Of a stretch of DNA of 47,124 bases, positions 26,821-34,641 are shown piece by piece. The stretch comes from an uncultured Erysipelotrichaceae bacterium (GTDB taxonomy: Bacteria; Bacillota_I; Bacilli_A; Erysipelotrichales; Erysipelotrichaceae). Location of the stretch: the NCBI GenBank assembly GCA_902786245.1, contig CADABS010000011.1, forward strand, positions 1 to 47,124, read 5' to 3'. Both the position numbers and the translations under genes were made by a program. How positions within the stretch are numbered: the stretch's first letter is position 1; each line of letters starts with the position of its first letter. The notes under the pieces are model-generated. The model was not told the DNA's origin. It ran no database searches and was given only the letters and a program-made list of their open reading frames with translations.

Positions 26821-27660
26821 CTATAAGCCGAGGAGTGCCAGGATCAGTCCGCCGGCAAGCGATGCCAGCCAGACACATCCGAGCACCCGGAAGTTTTCTT
26901 TCATATCAGGATTGACCCGGAACAGGACGAGCATGCCGGTGCCGGCATTGGCCAGCAGTCCGGCGGTCACCGACGCAAACGGGATCATCCCGTCCAGATA
27001 CATCTGCGACAGCAGGATCGAAGATGCACAGCTCGGAATCATGCCGACGAGGGCACAGACCGGGATCGATGCATTCTGATGCGAAGAAACAAATGTCTGC
27101 AGGGCATCCATGCCGATGAGTTCAACCAGGCCGTTGAGCAGCAGGGTGATCAGCAGCAGCCAGCCGGAGATCTGGAACGTATGCATCAGCGCCGAATAGA
27201 GAATGCCGTGGCTGTGATCGTCATGTTCACGGTCGCAGAAGGCATCCACATCCACCGGTCTTGATTTCAGCAGGAACGATATGAGATAGCCGGCAATCAC
27301 GGCAATGACGAATTTCACAGCCAGGACCGGCAGCCAGACAGAAGGGGACGCATGGGAAGAAACCATGATGGCAAGCATCTCGTCGCTGGTCGACAGATAT
27401 ACCGCCGCCAGTGTTCCCGTACCGATTACGCCGGTCGCAAACAGGCTTCCGGCTGCCCCGGAAAGACCGCAGGAGGGAACCAGTCCCAGCAGGGCTCCGA
27501 AGAAGGGAGCCAGGCGGTGATGCTTTTCAAGAACCGCTTCAAAGCGGTGTTCGGTCTGCTGTTCCAGCCATTCCAGAAACAGATAGGTGATGAACAGGAA
27601 GGGAATGATCTTGAGGACATCTTCACAGGTATCCGCAATGATGCCGGTTATGAACTCCAT
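26821..27660 (-). CDS. Putative manganese transporter / ArsP_2-type permease
   Basis: A 279-residue integral membrane protein with eight to ten helices and two related halves. Each half carries a G-x-x-P-S-C motif (GLVPSCGLSGAAGS and GMIPSCASSILLS). A cytoplasmic loop rich in His and acidic residues (DREHDDHSHG) lies between them. It matches the family annotated putative manganese transporter or ArsP_2 (PF11449). The ion is not proven; Mn(II) export is the usual suggestion. It starts inside the 3' end of apbE (13-nt overlap) with AGGAAGGA ahead of the ATG, so it is translated from the apbE mRNA. No yybP-ykoY type manganese riboswitch is visible upstream. Confidence 0.75.
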   Translation of the reverse strand: MEFITGIIADTCEDVLKIIPFLFITYLFLEWLEQQTEHRFEAVLEKHHRLAPFFGALLGLVPSCGLSGAAGSLFATGVIGTGTLAAVYLSTSDEMLAIMVSSHASPSVWLPVLAVKFVIAVIAGYLISFLLKSRPVDVDAFCDREHDDHSHGILYSALMHTFQISGWLLLITLLLNGLVELIGMDALQTFVSSHQNASIPVCALVGMIPSCASSILLSQMYLDGMIPFASVTAGLLANAGTGMLVLFRVNPDMKENFRVLGCVWLASLAGGLILALLGL

Positions 27661-28772
27661 GTGATCCTTCCTTCCAGACCCTCTGTATATGCAATATGGT
27701 AGCGGTCCGTGTCTTTTCCTTCAGTATCCTGGGTTTTATCTTTGGCCATGATCCATACCGCATCTGCCGTATGGCCGCTCTGCTGTTCGTATTTCTGCAG
27801 GACTGCTCTGCCTTCTTCGACGCTCAGACAGAACAGGGCAGTGCTCAGACAGTCGGCGGCCGAACTGTCTTCGGTGATGATCGTAACGCTGCGGTAATAC
27901 GCAGCCGGCATCAGCGTTGAAGGATCGATGATGTGATGATAGCGGGTGCCGTCTTCGCCTTCATAGAAGCGTTCATAGTCGCCGCTGGTGACAAACGAAC
28001 AGCTGCCGGGTTTCGAAATGACCAGCAGCGATGACCCGGTTTCCGGATCGACGATGCCGATCCGCCAGTCGCTGCCGTCTGCCTTCGTATGCACGGTCCG
28101 GATATTGCGTCCGGCATTGATGGAGGCATAGCTGCTGACCCTGTCATCCAGAGCCTGACCGATCATCTCCGCGGCATATCCCTTGGCGATGCCGCCGGCA
28201 TCCAGAGACATTTCCGGATCATCGAGGTACACCGTATTTTTTTCTTCATCGATCGTGACATGGGACCAGCCGGTATGGGCAGCTGCTTCCTGCAGTTCCT
28301 CCATGGAAGGAACCTTTCCCGGTCTGCCGGCAGCGTTTTCCTCAATGCCTTCTTCCCGGTAATTGTGCCAGACTTTCAGTATGGAGCCGATCGTGATATC
28401 AAAGGCACCGTCCGTGAGTTCACTGAAGTTCTTCGCTTCTTTGAGCATCCCGATCAGTACCGGATCGACTTCGACAGGTGCCTTGCCGGCATTGTCATTG
28501 ATCTCCTTGAGACCGCTGACGCCTTCATAGCTGTTATAGATATCAAACAGCGCATTGCACTGCGAGAACATGCCGGTGCCGGTTTCGAAGTTTTCCTTCA
28601 TCGCTTCCTCATCGGTGCCGTATTCGGTATAGGCATAGACGGTATCGAACCCTGCATCATACGACAGGTTGGAGTATTTGATCAGTTCTTTCTGTTCCTC
28701 TGCCGGGGCAGCTGTGCATCCCCACAGCAGTACTGCGGCAGCGGATATTTTTAAAATTCCTCTTTTTTTCAT
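27648..28772 (-). CDS. apbE: FAD:protein FMN transferase (lipoprotein)
   Basis: Transfers FMN from FAD to threonines of target proteins outside the membrane. The targets here are surely RnfG, RnfD and RnfD's extra domains, encoded divergently 102 bases away. The 374 residues start with a lipoprotein signal ending LLWGC. The ApbE core follows: SLDAGGIAKGYAAE (about 190), SYASINAGRNIRT, GSCSFVTSGDYERF and HHIIDPSTLMPA with its conserved His and Asp. There is no ribosome binding site. An extended -10 TGC-TATACT (ending at 28783) sits ten bases before the ATG, so the mRNA should have only a 3-4 base leader. The permease gene downstream overlaps it. Confidence 0.94.
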   Translation of the reverse strand: MKKRGILKISAAAVLLWGCTAAPAEEQKELIKYSNLSYDAGFDTVYAYTEYGTDEEAMKENFETGTGMFSQCNALFDIYNSYEGVSGLKEINDNAGKAPVEVDPVLIGMLKEAKNFSELTDGAFDITIGSILKVWHNYREEGIEENAAGRPGKVPSMEELQEAAAHTGWSHVTIDEEKNTVYLDDPEMSLDAGGIAKGYAAEMIGQALDDRVSSYASINAGRNIRTVHTKADGSDWRIGIVDPETGSSLLVISKPGSCSFVTSGDYERFYEGEDGTRYHHIIDPSTLMPAAYYRSVTIITEDSSAADCLSTALFCLSVEEGRAVLQKYEQQSGHTADAVWIMAKDKTQDTEGKDTDRYHIAYTEGLEGRITWSS

Positions 28773-28873: not shown

Positions 28874-30190
28874 ATGTCATTGTTAACAGGACCGATGAAA
28901 CATCACCTGAACGGACATAAAGGCCTGACCAAGGAGAAACCGGTACTCAAGACAATTGATCCGGATGTTGTCTGGATACCGCTGGTAAACGGAAACGCTC
29001 CCTGCAAGCCCTGTGTCAATGTCGGTGATGAAGTCAAAGTCGGTACAAAGATTGCGGAAAGAAATGATCATTTTTATTTGCCGCTTTTTTCGCCTGTCAG
29101 CGGAACCGTTACAGGAATCGAAAAATTCATGACATCCGGTCTGACACCGGCTGATCATCTGCGTATACAGAATGATCATAAACATACGGAGGTCCGCGCA
29201 TTTGAGCCGTTTGATTATGAAAAGGCATCCTGGGAGGAACTGCTTGAATTCGTGAAAAATGCAGGCATGCTGGGTCTTGGCGGTGCCGGCTTTCCGACCT
29301 ATGTGAAGTATCTGAAGCCGGAGAACGTCAGTCTTTTTATTGTGAACGCGGTTGAATGCGAACCGTATCTGACGGCAGATTATAAGAATATTGAAGAAAA
29401 CATGGATCTGCTCAGAACCGGAACACTTGCGCTTTTCAAGCTCAGCAAGGCAGAGAAGGGCTGTGTCGCAATCAAGGAAGATAAAAAGCATCAGATCGCC
29501 GAACTGCAGAAGGCATTTGCCGGAACACCGATCGAGATCCGTACGGTTCCCGATATGTATCCGATGGGCTGGGAAAGAACGCTCGTATATCAGCTGACAA
29601 AGAAGCGCTATGACAAGCTGCCGATCGAAGCGGGATGCATTCTGAACAACGCTTCCACGGCAATCGCCCTGGGCAATGCAATCGACAACGGACACCCGAT
29701 CACGCATAAGTACGTGACAGTATCCGGCGATGCGGTCAAAAATCCCCAGAATGTCCTGGTTCCGGTCGGAACGAAGGCACATGAGATCATCGATGCCTGC
29801 GGCGGCTATACAGAGGGAACGGAAGAAGTCCTGATGATCGCCGGCGGACCGATGATGGGACGCACGATTCCCAATGATCAGTTTGTCATTGCCCCGCCCA
29901 ATAACGGCCTGACGGTGCTGATCAATAAAGAACCCGAAGAAGTCAAGTGCCTGCGCTGCGGACGCTGCACGGAAACATGTCCTTCCGGACTGCAGCCGAT
30001 CCGTATTGCCATGACCGCGGCGATCTTCGATGAAGAAGAACTGATGAAACTGTCTGTCCTGGACTGCGTTGAATGCGGCATGTGCACCTATGTCTGCCGC
30101 TCCAAGCTCAATGTGACGGAACTGGTACGCAGAGGCAAGAACTTTGTCAGGACCAGACAGGCCAACAGAGCAAAGGAGGCGAAGAAATAA
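28874..30190 (+). CDS. rnfC: Rnf electron transport complex subunit C
   Basis: The membrane-bound NADH-side subunit of the Rnf complex, which couples ferredoxin oxidation and NAD+ reduction to Na+ or H+ pumping. The 438 residues include an N-terminal barrel-like domain (LFSPVSGTVTGIEKF), the flavin/NADH-binding GLGGAGFPTYVK (about 135) and VNAVECEPYLTADY, similar to NuoF, and two C-terminal ferredoxin motifs CLRCGRCTETCP and CVECGMCTYVCR. The length is typical. First gene of a seven-gene operon; its stop overlaps the rnfD start (TAATG). Confidence 0.96.
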   Translation: MSLLTGPMKHHLNGHKGLTKEKPVLKTIDPDVVWIPLVNGNAPCKPCVNVGDEVKVGTKIAERNDHFYLPLFSPVSGTVTGIEKFMTSGLTPADHLRIQNDHKHTEVRAFEPFDYEKASWEELLEFVKNAGMLGLGGAGFPTYVKYLKPENVSLFIVNAVECEPYLTADYKNIEENMDLLRTGTLALFKLSKAEKGCVAIKEDKKHQIAELQKAFAGTPIEIRTVPDMYPMGWERTLVYQLTKKRYDKLPIEAGCILNNASTAIALGNAIDNGHPITHKYVTVSGDAVKNPQNVLVPVGTKAHEIIDACGGYTEGTEEVLMIAGGPMMGRTIPNDQFVIAPPNNGLTVLINKEPEEVKCLRCGRCTETCPSGLQPIRIAMTAAIFDEEELMKLSVLDCVECGMCTYVCRSKLNVTELVRRGKNFVRTRQANRAKEAKK

Positions 30191-32415
30191 TGAAATTCGT
30201 ATTCAAGCCTTCGCCGAACTACCGGACAGAGCGCTCAACGATCGGCATCATGAGGGACCTGACGATCTGTCTGTGCGCGGTCGTTCTCTTCTCGGCAGTC
30301 TACCACGGAACGGCATTCGGCTTCAGCTACGGCCTGCGGGTCGTGCTGATGAGCGCGGTATCCGTGATTGCGGCTCTGGCAACAGAGGCGGTCTATTTCA
30401 AGATCATGGGCAGCAAGGACATCGTCAAGGATCTGCGCCATTCATTCGGATGGGTGACAGCGCTGATCCTGACCCTGATCACGCGCCTGGATGTAACCTA
30501 TTACGCACTGGCAGTCGCGACTGCCATCTGCATCGTGTTCGGCAAGCTGGTATTCGGCGGCTTCGGACAGAACATCTTCAATCCGGCGGCGTTCGGCGAA
30601 GCCATCATCATGAACAGCTTTGCGGCGCATAAAGCGGCCCAGGTCACAGCGGATGTCTATACCGGTGCGACCCCGATGGCGGCGATGGACAGTTACGGCT
30701 GGATCATGAGCTCGGATAAATTCGGCGAATTCGTCCAGCAGTTCGGCGGCCTCGGAAATATGTTCCTGGGCCAGTACCCCAGTGTCATCGGCGGCAGCTG
30801 CGCGGCTCTGCTTCTGCTCTGCGGCGCATATATGCTGTGGAAGAAAGATATCGACTGGCATCTGTCGGTATTCTATCTGATTTCCGTATTCTGCATGTCC
30901 CTGATCGTCGGCCTGATCAAAGGCGCCGGCATCTGGTATGCGGTATTCAATATTCTCGGCGGCGGCGTTCTGTTCGGTGCGGTATTCATGATGACCGACC
31001 CGGTCACGACACCGATCACGATTCCCGGACGCATGATCTTCGCGTTCGGCTGTGCCGCATTGACCCTGATCCTGCGCTGGAAGTCCAATCTTCCCGACGG
31101 CGTTCTCTTCTCGATCCTGCTGATGAATATGCTGACACCGGCAATCGACAAACTGGTCGACGGCAACCAGATCAAGAACGCGGGAATCATCCGCCGCAAG
31201 GTCATCATCTCCAGTGCATTCGCAGTGGCGGTATGCATGGCCGTCGGTCTGACGATCGAAGGAAAGGAACCTGCTCCGGCAGCACCTGCGGGCGGTTCTG
31301 CAGAAGTGACACCGCTGGGTGCTCTGCAGGAAGAAGATCTCAGTTCTGCCAAGGCAGCCTGCACAGAGTCTTCCAATGACGGCAAGACAGCAGTATACGC
31401 CTGCGAGGCATTCGGCTTTGAAGGAACAAACAAGGCGGATGTCACAGTCGATCTGAAGAAGAATGAAATCGTATCGGTCAAGGTCACGGAATTCAATGAC
31501 ACCGAAGGCATCGGCGATGCGGCAGTGACAGAGGAAGCGCTGAAGGCATATAAGGGCGTTACCCTGGAAGGCAATGTCGATGACGCAAGTGCAGCTACGC
31601 CGGCGACAATGACGAAGAAAGCACTGCGGGCAATGGTCCAGAAGGCACTGCTCATGGCAACCGGACAGGAAGCTGCAGCCCCGGCAAAACCGCCTCTGTC
31701 AGAAGAAAAACTGAAGGGCTACCACGGTGAATGCACTGCCGAAAGCACGGACGGCGATATCACGGTATACGCCTGCAAGGCAACCGGCTTCAGCGGCGGA
31801 ACCAATGAAGCAAAGGTAACTGTCGATACGGCAAAGGGAACGGTCACGGATATCGAAATCACGGTATTTGCGGATGACGGTGACGATGTCGGCGATGATG
31901 CGGCGGATGCGGATAAGCTGGAACGGTATATCGGCGCATCCCTGGATTCGTCCATCGACAATCTCAGCGGCGCAACCAAGACGACCGGTTCCTTCAAGGC
32001 AATGGTCAGAGCTGCGCTGGAAGCAGCGGGAGCGGATGAGATTCCCGAAGGCGGTTCAGCTGCTTCGGCCGGTACGATCGGCAATGAGGCATTCAGCCTT
32101 TCCCAGAAGTGCACGGAATCATCCAATGACGGCAGTACCGCGGTCTATGCATGTTCCGCAAAGGGATATGCCGGAACCAATGAGGCAGAGATCACTGTCG
32201 ATCTGAAAGAAGGAAAGATCACGGCAATGGAAATCACGACATTCGCCGATGACGGCGACAATGTCGGCGATGATCTCAACAGTGCGGAAAAACTGGGTGC
32301 GTACGTCGGCGCAACGCTGCAGTCGGCAATCAATGAAACAGGCGGCGCAACGATGACCGCTGATTCTTTCAAGGCAATGGCAGCGGAAGCCCTGAAGGCT
32401 GCGGCCGGAAACTGA
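30190..32415 (+). CDS. rnfD: RnfD fused to three extracytoplasmic FMN-binding domains
   Basis: The first 375 residues are a normal RnfD/NqrB-type subunit with about ten membrane helices and the covalent-FMN site in TDPVTTP (269-275). The chain then continues to 741 residues, about twice the family's length. Three FMN_bind-like repeats lie at about 385-505, 515-625 and 635-741, each opening with Cys-Thr-x-Glu-Ser or similar and VYAC. Their flavinylation motifs differ: repeat 1 PATMT (471-475, degenerate), repeat 2 SGATKT (593-598, canonical), repeat 3 GGATMT (718-723, near-canonical). Arg-Arg-Lys before the last helix puts the repeats outside the cell, where ApbE works. Start 30190 has AAGGAGG; the longer frame from 30073 runs inside rnfC. 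Confidence 0.9.
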   Translation: MKFVFKPSPNYRTERSTIGIMRDLTICLCAVVLFSAVYHGTAFGFSYGLRVVLMSAVSVIAALATEAVYFKIMGSKDIVKDLRHSFGWVTALILTLITRLDVTYYALAVATAICIVFGKLVFGGFGQNIFNPAAFGEAIIMNSFAAHKAAQVTADVYTGATPMAAMDSYGWIMSSDKFGEFVQQFGGLGNMFLGQYPSVIGGSCAALLLLCGAYMLWKKDIDWHLSVFYLISVFCMSLIVGLIKGAGIWYAVFNILGGGVLFGAVFMMTDPVTTPITIPGRMIFAFGCAALTLILRWKSNLPDGVLFSILLMNMLTPAIDKLVDGNQIKNAGIIRRKVIISSAFAVAVCMAVGLTIEGKEPAPAAPAGGSAEVTPLGALQEEDLSSAKAACTESSNDGKTAVYACEAFGFEGTNKADVTVDLKKNEIVSVKVTEFNDTEGIGDAAVTEEALKAYKGVTLEGNVDDASAATPATMTKKALRAMVQKALLMATGQEAAAPAKPPLSEEKLKGYHGECTAESTDGDITVYACKATGFSGGTNEAKVTVDTAKGTVTDIEITVFADDGDDVGDDAADADKLERYIGASLDSSIDNLSGATKTTGSFKAMVRAALEAAGADEIPEGGSAASAGTIGNEAFSLSQKCTESSNDGSTAVYACSAKGYAGTNEAEITVDLKEGKITAMEITTFADDGDNVGDDLNSAEKLGAYVGATLQSAINETGGATMTADSFKAMAAEALKAAAGN

Positions 32416-32428
32416 GGAGGTGCAGACA

Positions 32429-32950
32429 ATGAAAAATTTTGACAAAGATTCTTCTGCATACAAGGCAGTTCTTCTCGGTATCATGTGCGCCATCTGCGGT
32501 CTGGTTCTCTCCGTAGTCAATTCCATTACCGATCCGATAATCAAGGAAGCGGAACTGGCTGAAGTCAAAGCGAATCTTGAAATCATGTTCCCGGGTACGT
32601 CCTATGAAGAAATCAAGGATTTCACAGATGAAAGCGGACTGATCCAGTCTGTATACAGAGCGAAAGACCAGGGTGTTGTATTCAAGATCCATGCGGTCGG
32701 ATACAACTCCAACGGATTTACGTTTATGACCGGCATTGCCGATGACGGCAGAGTCGCCGGATATATGGTGCTTGAACACGGTGAAACAAACGGTATCGGC
32801 AGCCGGGCGTTCGAAGATGACTACATCAGTAAGGTCACTTCGCTGAATGCCGGCGATGATGTGCCGCTGCTGACCGGCGCGACACTGACATCGACCGCTG
32901 TCAAGACCGGCATCGAAGCTGCATACAAAGTCTTCGATGCAGTGAAATAA
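32429..32950 (+). CDS. rnfG: Rnf electron transport complex subunit G
   Basis: A 173-residue subunit with one N-terminal helix (about 10-28) and an extracytoplasmic FMN_bind domain. The motif LTGATLTS near the C-terminus carries the threonine that ApbE flavinylates. GMVVLEHGETNGIG-type sequence (here YMVLEHGETNGIG) is typical. It passes electrons between the RnfC/RnfD flavins and the membrane part. GAGGAGG eight to nine bases before the ATG at 32429 fixes the start. Its FMN domain is the normal single-copy counterpart of the three repeats on RnfD. Confidence 0.95.
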   Translation: MKNFDKDSSAYKAVLLGIMCAICGLVLSVVNSITDPIIKEAELAEVKANLEIMFPGTSYEEIKDFTDESGLIQSVYRAKDQGVVFKIHAVGYNSNGFTFMTGIADDGRVAGYMVLEHGETNGIGSRAFEDDYISKVTSLNAGDDVPLLTGATLTSTAVKTGIEAAYKVFDAVK

Positions 32951-32961
32951 GGGAGGCAGTC

Positions 32962-33600
32962 ATGAGCGAAAATAAAGAAAAGAAATCCGTCTTCATGTCC
33001 AAGCTGCTGAAGGAAAATCCGGTATTCGGACTGTATCTCGGCATCTGTTCGACCCTTGCGATTTCCACATCCATCAACAACGCAATCGGCATGGGTGTCT
33101 GTGTAACGATCGTCCTTGTCCTCTCGAATATCCTTGTTTCCTGCGTCCGCAATATCACTCCGGAAGATATCCATATTCCGGTCTATATCGTCATCATCGC
33201 GTCTCTGGTTACAGTCGTATCCATGGTCGTGCATGCATTTGCCCCGACGCTGTTCAGTTCGCTGGGTGCGTTCCTCGACCTGATCGTCGTCAACTGCATT
33301 ATCCTGGGCAGAGCGGAAGCGTTCGCTTCCATGAACCCGATCGGACCTTCTGCCAAGGACGGTCTGAATATGGGACTGAGCTATACGGTCTCACTGCTGG
33401 CAATCTCGCTGATCCGTCAGCTGCTCGGCACCGGCATGATCACCTGGGACAATCCGTTTACGGGAGCCAATGTATTCTCGCTGCGGATCATTCCGGAAAC
33501 ATTCACGCTGCCGCTGATGACATCGCAGGTCGGCGCATTCCTGACATTTGCGTGCCTGGCAGCTGCCGTCGCCGCAATCAATAACAAGGAGGCGAAGTAA
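32962..33600 (+). CDS. rnfE: Rnf electron transport complex subunit E
   Basis: A 212-residue integral membrane subunit with six helices. It is homologous to RnfA and NqrD; the A/E pair holds a shared intramembrane iron-sulfur centre. ENPVFGLYLGICSTLAIS at the start and VVNCIILGRAEAFAS are signature segments, each with a conserved cysteine. GGGAGG precedes the ATG. The stop overlaps the start of rnfA by one base (TAATG), as between rnfC and rnfD. Confidence 0.95.
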   Translation: MSENKEKKSVFMSKLLKENPVFGLYLGICSTLAISTSINNAIGMGVCVTIVLVLSNILVSCVRNITPEDIHIPVYIVIIASLVTVVSMVVHAFAPTLFSSLGAFLDLIVVNCIILGRAEAFASMNPIGPSAKDGLNMGLSYTVSLLAISLIRQLLGTGMITWDNPFTGANVFSLRIIPETFTLPLMTSQVGAFLTFACLAAAVAAINNKEAK

Positions 33601-34172
33601 TGAATCTGTTTACATTGTTTCTGAGCGCAATGCTGATCAACAATATCATTCTCTCGAAGTTCCTCGGCATGTGTCCGTTCATGGGCGTATCGACCAGAAC
33701 CTCCAATGCCTTCGGCATGGGCATCGCGGTCATCTTCGTCATCTTCGGCGCTTCGCTTCTGTCCTATGCGCTGTATTATCTGGTTCTGGTACCGCTGGAA
33801 CTGGAATACATGGAACTGATCACATTCATTCTGCTGATCGCCGCATTCGTACAGCTGACGGACATGATCATCAAGAAGCATTCCCCGACGCTGTACAAGC
33901 AGCTGGGTATCTACCTGCCGCTGATCACCACCAACTGCGCAGTGCTCTATGTGGCAATGGACAACATTACCCAGAAATACAATCTGATTGAGACCATTGT
34001 CAATTCCATCGCAGTACCGGCCGGATTCATGCTGATGCTCGTCATCTTCGCTACGATCCGCGAACGTCTGCAGGGAAATGACGTACCGAAAGCGTTTGCC
34101 GGAAATCCGATCGCATTTATCATTGCGGCGATCATGGCAATTGCCTTCACATCTCTGTCCGGACTGGTATAA
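33600..34172 (+). CDS. rnfA: Rnf electron transport complex subunit A
   Basis: A 190-residue six-helix subunit paralogous to RnfE. LINNIILSKFLGMCPFMGVS and LITTNCAVLYVAM contain the two cysteines that with RnfE's pair would bind the intramembrane cluster. GGAGG lies inside the end of rnfE. Four bases after its stop begins a small cysteine-rich membrane protein instead of rnfB. Confidence 0.96.
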   Translation: MNLFTLFLSAMLINNIILSKFLGMCPFMGVSTRTSNAFGMGIAVIFVIFGASLLSYALYYLVLVPLELEYMELITFILLIAAFVQLTDMIIKKHSPTLYKQLGIYLPLITTNCAVLYVAMDNITQKYNLIETIVNSIAVPAGFMLMLVIFATIRERLQGNDVPKAFAGNPIAFIIAAIMAIAFTSLSGLV

Positions 34173-34175
34173 AAA

Positions 34176-34373
34176 ATGAATGCGCTTTTGGGAGCTGCCA
34201 TCGCATTTGCCCTGGTCGGGCTGAATGCATGGCTCTATACAGCCAATAAAAAAACGCCGGTACCGGAAGGCTGCGAAGAACTGAAGCCTGACTGCAGTGC
34301 CTGCGGAATCAGAGACTGCGCACTGCGCAGTGCCCTGACGGAAAGAAAAGAGGAGAATAATGGCGATAATTAA
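34176..34373 (+). CDS. Small single-helix membrane protein with four-cysteine cluster
   Basis: A 65-residue protein. Residues 3-22 form one membrane helix, and the soluble tail holds C33-x6-C40-x2-C43-x4-C48, then a charged end. Embedded between rnfA and rnfB and overlapping rnfB by 14 bases, it must be made with the complex. I do not recognise the family. The plan of one helix plus four cysteines recalls NqrM, the 70-residue factor needed to mature the Na+-NQR iron centre; that is inference from layout, not homology. Alternatives are an extra electron-carrying subunit or the detached N-terminus of RnfB. The ribosome binding site is weak, so translational coupling to rnfA is likely. Confidence 0.7.
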   Translation: MNALLGAAIAFALVGLNAWLYTANKKTPVPEGCEELKPDCSACGIRDCALRSALTERKEENNGDN

Positions 34374-34641
34374 AGCAGTAGCTATGATGCTGGTGATCGG
34401 TGCGCTGATCGGTCTGTTCCTCGGCATTGCCGGCAAGAAATTCTATGTTGCGCCTGATACAAGAGTCGAAGATGTTCTGGCGATGCTGCCGGGATACAAC
34501 TGCGGCGGCTGCGGAAATCCGGGCTGCGCAGGCATGGCTTCTGCGCTTGTCGAAGGAAGCTGCACCGTTGATAAATGCAAGCCGTGCAAAGCGGATGTGA
34601 AAGAGCAGATCAAAAAATATCTGGCTGAACACGCTAAATAG
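34360..34641 (+). CDS. rnfB: Short RnfB: membrane helix plus Fe-S domain only
   Basis: A 93-residue protein with an N-terminal helix (about 5-25) and the RnfB cluster domain: VEDVLAMLPGYNCGGCGNPGCAGM-like sequence with C-x2-C-x4-C and further cysteines in SCTVDKCKPC. Typical RnfB continues with two or more 4Fe-4S ferredoxin motifs that receive electrons from soluble ferredoxin. Here the stop comes straight after the first domain, and no ferredoxin motif exists in any frame before the terminator. AGAGGAG five bases before the ATG supports the start. Last gene of the rnf operon. Confidence 0.88.
   Translation: MAIIKAVAMMLVIGALIGLFLGIAGKKFYVAPDTRVEDVLAMLPGYNCGGCGNPGCAGMASALVEGSCTVDKCKPCKADVKEQIKKYLAEHAK

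Follow-up and report, generated by a model that had tools for sequence, protein, structure and literature searches.

Why does the RnfD subunit of an ion pump continue, past its usual end, into three additional FMN_bind domains, and what could such a tail do for the complex? The question is raised by the contig CADABS010000011.1 of an uncultured Erysipelotrichaceae bacterium (assembly GCA_902786245.1), of which a stretch of 47,124 nucleotides was analysed (hereafter the window) and in which the Rnf subunits C, D, G, E, A and B are all encoded together, in the order rnfCDGEAB (28874-34641). The rnfD gene (30190..32415, + strand) is one open frame of 741 codons, from the ATG at 30190 to the TGA at 32415. 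As a preliminary description of this locus had noticed, the frame runs without interruption past the usual end of RnfD, so that the product consists of the RnfD core, an added helix, a linker and three FMN_bind domains (PF03116 followed by three matches to PF04205). The explanation that we favour, with moderate confidence, is that these domains are flavin arms tethered to RnfD outside the membrane, through which electrons could leave the pump.

The part of the protein that belongs to any RnfD is complete. The membrane core (30190..31170, + strand; residues 1-327) is of the RnfD/NqrB family with 10 transmembrane helices, and the NQR2_RnfD_RnfE profile (PF03116) spans its residues 5-327 (E 1.6e-70). 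The predicted site of its covalent flavin mononucleotide (FMN), T161 (30670..30672, + strand), lies in the motif TGATP, of which T161-P162 is invariant in alignments, and Thr153 is the equivalent residue in C. tetanomorphum (PMC9588780). When an AlphaFold model of the full protein (mean predicted local distance difference test score, pLDDT, of 75) was compared with known structures using Foldseek, the RnfD chains of A. woodii, A. vinelandii and C. tetanomorphum (9eri_D, 8ahx_D and 7zc6_D) came out at the top, and RnfG and NqrC chains were also drawn.

The window belongs to a draft metagenome-assembled genome (G000) of 2.75 Mb, 96.5% complete and in 102 contigs, and such a fragmented draft might suggest that the tail is a frameshift, misassembly or fusion artefact. 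This idea is practically excluded, being refuted by the recurrence of the architecture in numerous genomes that were assembled separately, some of them from named isolates (Dielma fastidiosa and Candidatus Stoquefichus massiliensis, for example). Since independently assembled relatives (loci designated here by L numbers) share the succession of RnfD, helix, linker and FMN_bind, there is no frameshift or misassembly near position 31270, where an assembly error had initially been considered. RnfD frames of more than 450 amino acids are common in the order and are also found in other families of the phylum, and the tail architecture is conserved in two families of the order and also outside it. 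Closest among the named records are those of Solobacterium sp. and of Erysipelotrichaceae metagenome-assembled genomes, all of ruminant gut origin, and more distant matches include Dielma, Stoquefichus and Massilimicrobiota.

The nature of the tail was assessed by profile, predicted fold and motif. In a genome-wide profile search in which the domains were scored singly, all three repeats exceeded the curated PF04205 cut-off of 22 bits, as the preliminary description had anticipated: domain 1 (31354..31659) with 32.7 bits (E 1.2e-7, at 31414-31650), domain 2 (31729..32034) with 31.2 bits (E 3.7e-7, at 31795-32022) and domain 3 (32104..32409) with 24.7 bits (E 9e-5, at 32164-32397), all on the + strand. 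The repeats are spaced by ~375 nucleotides, and their two best pairs are 71-80% identical at the DNA level over 98-103 nucleotides. In the AlphaFold models, of which that of the tail alone has a mean pLDDT of 81, domains 2 and 3 are bounded at residues 514-615 and 639-740 and show strands and helices in the order seen in domain 1. The model of domain 1 superimposes on RnfG (8ahx_G; Z 11.3 over 103 residues) and on the crystal structure of CbFMN4 domain 1 (8p2b_A; Z 10.2 over 83 residues), the latter (8P2B) being also matched by sequence with an E-value of 0.0074. A Foldseek search with the tail-only model returned nothing below E 0.001, and RnfG and NqrC chains filled its list at a probability of 1.00. 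By these profile, fold and motif criteria, the tail domains are FMN_bind domains. Each repeat opens with a pair of cysteines, C-x13-C (CTESSNDGKTAVYAC; 31357-31402, 31732-31776 and 32107-32152), which spans the first predicted beta hairpin and could be a disulfide; a like pair is present in many of the extra RnfD and RnfG domains of relatives and in almost no core RnfG.

For these domains to act as proposed, they would have to lie outside the cell. In published Rnf structures RnfD has 10 transmembrane helices and its C-terminal residues are cytoplasmic (PMC12174285; PMC9588780), the last ~10 residues after helix 10 of canonical RnfD lying inside the cell against RnfC (PMC9588780). A tail attached to such a C-terminus would be inside and therefore beyond the reach of an exported ApbE. 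In the window, a predicted eleventh transmembrane helix (31180..31254, + strand; residues 331-355), with positive residues on its N-terminal side, follows the core. Hydropathy analysis revealed an extra hydrophobic stretch past helix 10 in 45 of 45 RnfDs checked, tail-bearing or tail-less, from two families of the order, and the mean number of lysines and arginines around it is 3.6 before and 1.5 after. AlphaFold also gives residues 331-355 as a separate helix, followed by a low-confidence, presumably flexible linker rich in proline, alanine and serine that leads to domain 1 (31258..31350, + strand; low pLDDT at 360-384). Because the eleventh helix and its positive-inside flank add one membrane crossing, the tail probably lies outside the cell membrane, which is the simplest reading of the predicted topology and agrees with what the preliminary description had required of the C-terminus. 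The tail that it had described is real, but starts at about residue 357, after the helix, and not at residue 380.

Whether the arms carry flavin depends on the motif recognized by ApbE, Dxx[S/T]GA[S/T], in which the change of D to A has a minor effect, that of G to A reduces the yield by half and loss of the Thr abolishes flavinylation (PMC12052999). The repeats end in TPATMT, SGATKT and GGATMT, as had been read at first sight. Repeat 2 (DNLSGAT) fits the motif exactly, and FMN is expected on its T596 (31975-31977); repeat 3 (NETGGAT) is near-consensus and probably carries FMN on T721 (32350-32352); repeat 1, with its degenerate TPATMT, is probably flavinylated poorly or not at all on T473. 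The enzyme itself is encoded next door and divergently from rnfC, as the preliminary description had pointed out, by apbE (27648..28772, - strand; FAD:protein FMN transferase, where FAD is flavin adenine dinucleotide; PF02424, E 1.9e-69), and the lipobox-like signal LLWGC read from its sequence means that ApbE is probably exported. The original proposal of one to three extra covalent flavins can therefore be narrowed to two likely ones on the RnfD tail, at T596 and T721, the first repeat being doubtful for want of the SG of the motif. Among the tail domains of the window and its relatives in the genus and the order, the strict [ST]GA[ST] is found in 35 of 41 and A[ST] in 41 of 41. On this comparison the decay of the motif is peculiar to the window, an outlier among tail domains, and the suggestion that graded decay reflects different roles of the repeats has no support, since the intact motif is the rule elsewhere.

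Comparison of the operons of the genus indicated that the tail domains belong to a pool of modules shared with rnfG. The number of FMN_bind domains in the genus ranges from 0 to 3 on RnfD and from 1 to 5 on RnfG, and 19 of the 28 complete operons have at least one tail domain on RnfD. In a tree of 82 FMN_bind domains, the 28 core RnfG domains group together (100, a supported branch), and all tail domains of RnfD and extra domains of RnfG fall on the other side, where the two labels are intermingled (14 label changes, at least 7 of which are forced by supported branches). As judged by this tree, the tail and extra RnfG domains are one family, distinct from the core RnfG domain, whose members move between the two genes. 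In locus L045 (4868-7635), rnfD and rnfG agree in 99.7% of their final 372 nucleotides, up to and including the stop codon, a degree of identity by which we recognize recent copying between the adjacent genes. In L056 the final 411 nucleotides of both genes are 96.4% identical; this pair is not an echo of the assembly, because, per site, synonymous changes outnumber nonsynonymous ones tenfold. Repeats 2 and 3 of the window are nearest to the extra RnfG domains of relatives, at a fork of the tree that is not a supported one. The clade of the window consists of four operons, with one tail domain on RnfD and three domains on RnfG (twice), two and two, and three and one, so that the total is always 4; these cases, which are few, suggest that the number of domains matters more than the subunit that carries them.

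One could regard the repeats as mostly the product of neutral recombination, of little use to the cell, as the operon tree implies 11 changes in the RnfD count and 9 in the RnfG count, and repeats 1 and 3 of the window are off-consensus. The ratio of nonsynonymous to synonymous substitution rates (dN/dS) between paired domains is, however, 0.1-0.5, values by which the tail modules are under purifying selection. Together with the conservation of the motif in most tail domains and of the architecture over two families and beyond, this makes neutral expansion very improbable.

According to the explanation favoured here, an ordinary 10-helix RnfD would have gained an eleventh helix and three FMN_bind domains. 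The helix would turn the C-terminus outward, beside RnfG and the FMN of RnfD itself, and the divergently encoded ApbE would attach FMN to repeat 2, probably to repeat 3 and doubtfully to repeat 1. On their flexible linkers, the domains might act as tethered arms that accept electrons from the mobile FMN domain of RnfG or from the FMN of RnfD and pass these on to flavoproteins that are also exported, for example a lipoprotein flavin reductase that combines two FMN_bind domains with FAD_binding_2. The pump would thereby obtain an outward exit besides its normal loop between ferredoxin and nicotinamide adenine dinucleotide (NAD), and the modules would work on RnfD or RnfG alike, being copied between the 3' ends of both genes. 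The sequences establish what the domains are, that their architecture is conserved, that they share a family with the extra RnfG domains, that modules are copied and that they are under purifying selection; the outside location and the flavinylation are predictions, and the exit and its acceptor are inferred.

That electrons branch off through the tail to external acceptors is plausible, given an exported-type flavin reductase in the genome and the absence there of the other transmembrane donor families that were tested. The reductase, P0004 (L084 4692-7205, G000:C12), is an exported-type lipoprotein with two FMN_bind domains, the first with a degenerate motif, and FAD_binding_2, and is a putative secreted reductase of the fumarate/urocanate type; a small FMN_bind lipoprotein, P0005, is also encoded. 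The donor families PF12801, PF01794, PF02683 and PF03929 gave no match in this genome, a draft in which other donors may exist, and PF03116 gave a single one. DsbD_TM (PF02683), missing here, is present in all but one of the other same-genus genomes listed; its absence could be a true loss or a gap of the draft. Another FMN_bind protein (L086 9127-9675, G000:C68) looked Bacteroidota-like by eye, and its contig may be a binning contaminant.

Alternatively, the tail flavins might serve the Rnf loop itself, as extra mobile carriers among RnfA/E, RnfG and RnfD that would speed up turnover without providing any exit. The free swapping of modules between the neighbouring RnfD and RnfG would be compatible with this, and so would the fusion of an RnfG domain to RnfD in Clostridia and RF39-like Bacilli, from which it follows that FMN domains borne by RnfD can join the loop. 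These fusions are found without a separate rnfG in RF39-like Bacilli (L106, L108-L111, L117, L119 and L120), where RnfB is short or undetected, and in Lachnospiraceae and other Clostridia (L140, L142, L145 and L150; also L082 and L083), where RnfB is full-length in the complete operons. In both groups the attached domain must do the job of RnfG, and therefore it can exchange electrons with the complex. The Clostridia fusions resemble the window in that an extra helix precedes the FMN_bind domain at the C-terminus of RnfD, but the tail of the window is additional to a complete RnfG, whose normal core domain is phylogenetically apart from the tail family. Moreover, a chain of up to six domains exceeds the need of a loop, and known multi-FMN domains lie near -184 mV, too positive for an easy return of electrons to NAD+. 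That midpoint was determined for a three-FMN protein (PMC10339131), whereas the NADH/ferredoxin span of the Rnf loop is -500 to -300 mV (PMC9588780), so that electrons would tend to exit via the tail if its flavins are similar. We therefore regard a role confined to the loop as unlikely. We also consider it quite improbable that the arms are an electron buffer, or a sink for oxygen or other oxidants that shields the pump in a strict anaerobe. Reduced multi-FMN protein does react with oxygen (PMC10339131) and several flavins per complex could store several electrons, but a sink leaves the co-occurring exported FMN_bind reductases unexplained, even though their association with the arms is not significant after tree correction.

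Several observations weigh against tethered arms as an electron exit. In repeat 1 (AATPAT) the SG of the motif is missing and three residues are inserted relative to relatives, and repeat 3 lacks both the D and the S/T. The RnfD tail is absent from 9 of the 28 genus operons, 6 of which have no extra domain whatever, and is thus dispensable. No reductase gene lies within the rnf operon, and the value of -184 mV belongs to another protein than the RnfD tail. Where an operon of the genus has no extra domain, 0-1 other FMN_bind domains accompany it, compared with 1-15 for the remaining operons (p 0.0006 on raw counts); with only three independent contrasts on the tree, this association is not significant once relatedness is accounted for. 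It was set aside as proof and is taken as a hint only.

A wider hypothesis, which we put forward tentatively and hold to be possible rather than probable, is that the Rnf of Erysipelotrichales is a pump with interchangeable external flavin arms, their number being set by the module pool, and that the arms feed electrons from NADH or ferredoxin to secreted flavin reductases. Rnf might then be the missing membrane donor for flavin-based extracellular respiration in cytochrome-poor gut bacteria. The secreted flavin reductases of gut Firmicutes often have no assigned membrane electron donor. If this were true, an ion pump whose arms carry covalent flavins would tie energy conservation directly to extracellular reduction. 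The number of arms varies among relatives from 0 to 3 on RnfD, and that of domains on RnfG from 1 to 5, which constitutes a natural test series, and copying between adjacent subunit genes is an unusual and visible way in which an electron-transfer chain lengthens and relocates in evolution.

Part of this picture has a precedent. Multi-flavinylated RnfG proteins have been described in RNF clusters and proposed to offer electrons an additional route to acceptors outside the cell (Meheust et al. 2021, PMC8238504). The likeness lies in an Rnf with extra FMN_bind domains outside and a proposed route to external acceptors, and those relatives of the window whose RnfG has 2-5 domains match the published form exactly. 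The window differs in that its domains are on RnfD, behind an eleventh helix, while its RnfG has a single domain and falls outside the published type, to which its close relatives belong; the multi-flavinylated subunit named in the main text of that study is RnfG, not RnfD. The canonical complexes of C. tetanomorphum (7ZC6), A. woodii (9ERI) and A. vinelandii (8AHX) share the rnfCDGEAB order, the RnfD core fold and an RnfG with one covalent FMN, but their RnfD stops ~10 residues past helix 10, inside (PMC9588780), and their RnfB has a C-terminal multi-cluster ferredoxin domain. SaFMN3 and CbFMN4 (PMC10339131) are likewise chains of FMN_bind domains flavinylated by ApbE, but are stand-alone extracellular proteins and not subunits of an ion pump. 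In Proteiniclasticum and Youngiibacter, RnfD bears a single domain and RnfG has two. In the literature searched, neither an FMN_bind tail on RnfD nor an exchange of modules between rnfD and rnfG was described, although a listing in a supplement is possible. While the multi-flavinylated RnfG and the idea of an exit are already known, the arms borne by RnfD and the exchange of modules thus appear to be new.

The other genes of the operon, all on the + strand, encode a core chain of RnfB, RnfA/E, RnfG, RnfD and RnfC that is intact. The rnfC gene (28874..30190) encodes the NADH-side subunit with two [4Fe-4S] motifs (TIGR01945, 353.7 bits, above the cut-off), rnfE (32962..33600) was recognized by the RsxE/RnfE models and rnfA (33600..34172) by TIGR01943 (240 bits, above the cut-off). 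RnfB (34360..34641) is short, with 93 amino acids comprising one transmembrane helix and one FeS domain for a [4Fe-4S] cluster; it matches PF04060 only and aligns to positions 1-89 of the 190 of TIGR01944, the C-terminal ferredoxin cluster domain being absent. A short RnfB (86-131 amino acids) is common to tail-bearing relatives, Acholeplasmatales, Athalassotoga (L137) and a Defluviitaleaceae genome (L114). In Thermotoga maritima Rnf, RnfB is likewise of ~10 kDa with one predicted [4Fe-4S] cluster and the complex accepts electrons from ferredoxin, but its RnfD, of 34.6 kDa, is tail-less (PMC7414866). Since that complex takes ferredoxin electrons with a short RnfB, normal ferredoxin:NAD activity is likely here too. 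A loss of the ferredoxin input through the short RnfB was considered and rejected, the T. maritima Rnf with a like RnfB being still ferredoxin-fed (PMC7414866; PMC9588780). The genome might have encoded a further ferredoxin module of the RnfB kind at another site, but the two other proteins with FeS domains resemble cytosolic hydrogenase-like sensors, and this idea was rejected as well.

RnfG (32429..32950) is a core RnfG with a single FMN_bind domain (PF04205) and the motif PLLTGATLT (TIGR01947, E 2e-17; 7zc6_G, E 3e-15). Its start is more likely the ATG at 32429 than the GTG at 32420, because the latter overlaps the ribosome-binding site AGGAGG. Divergently upstream of the operon, apbE is followed by a gene for an ArsP_2-like protein with 10 transmembrane helices ('arsenic efflux'; 26821-27660), and an ArsP_2-like gene also adjoins apbE in the relatives L046, L047 and L060-L063.

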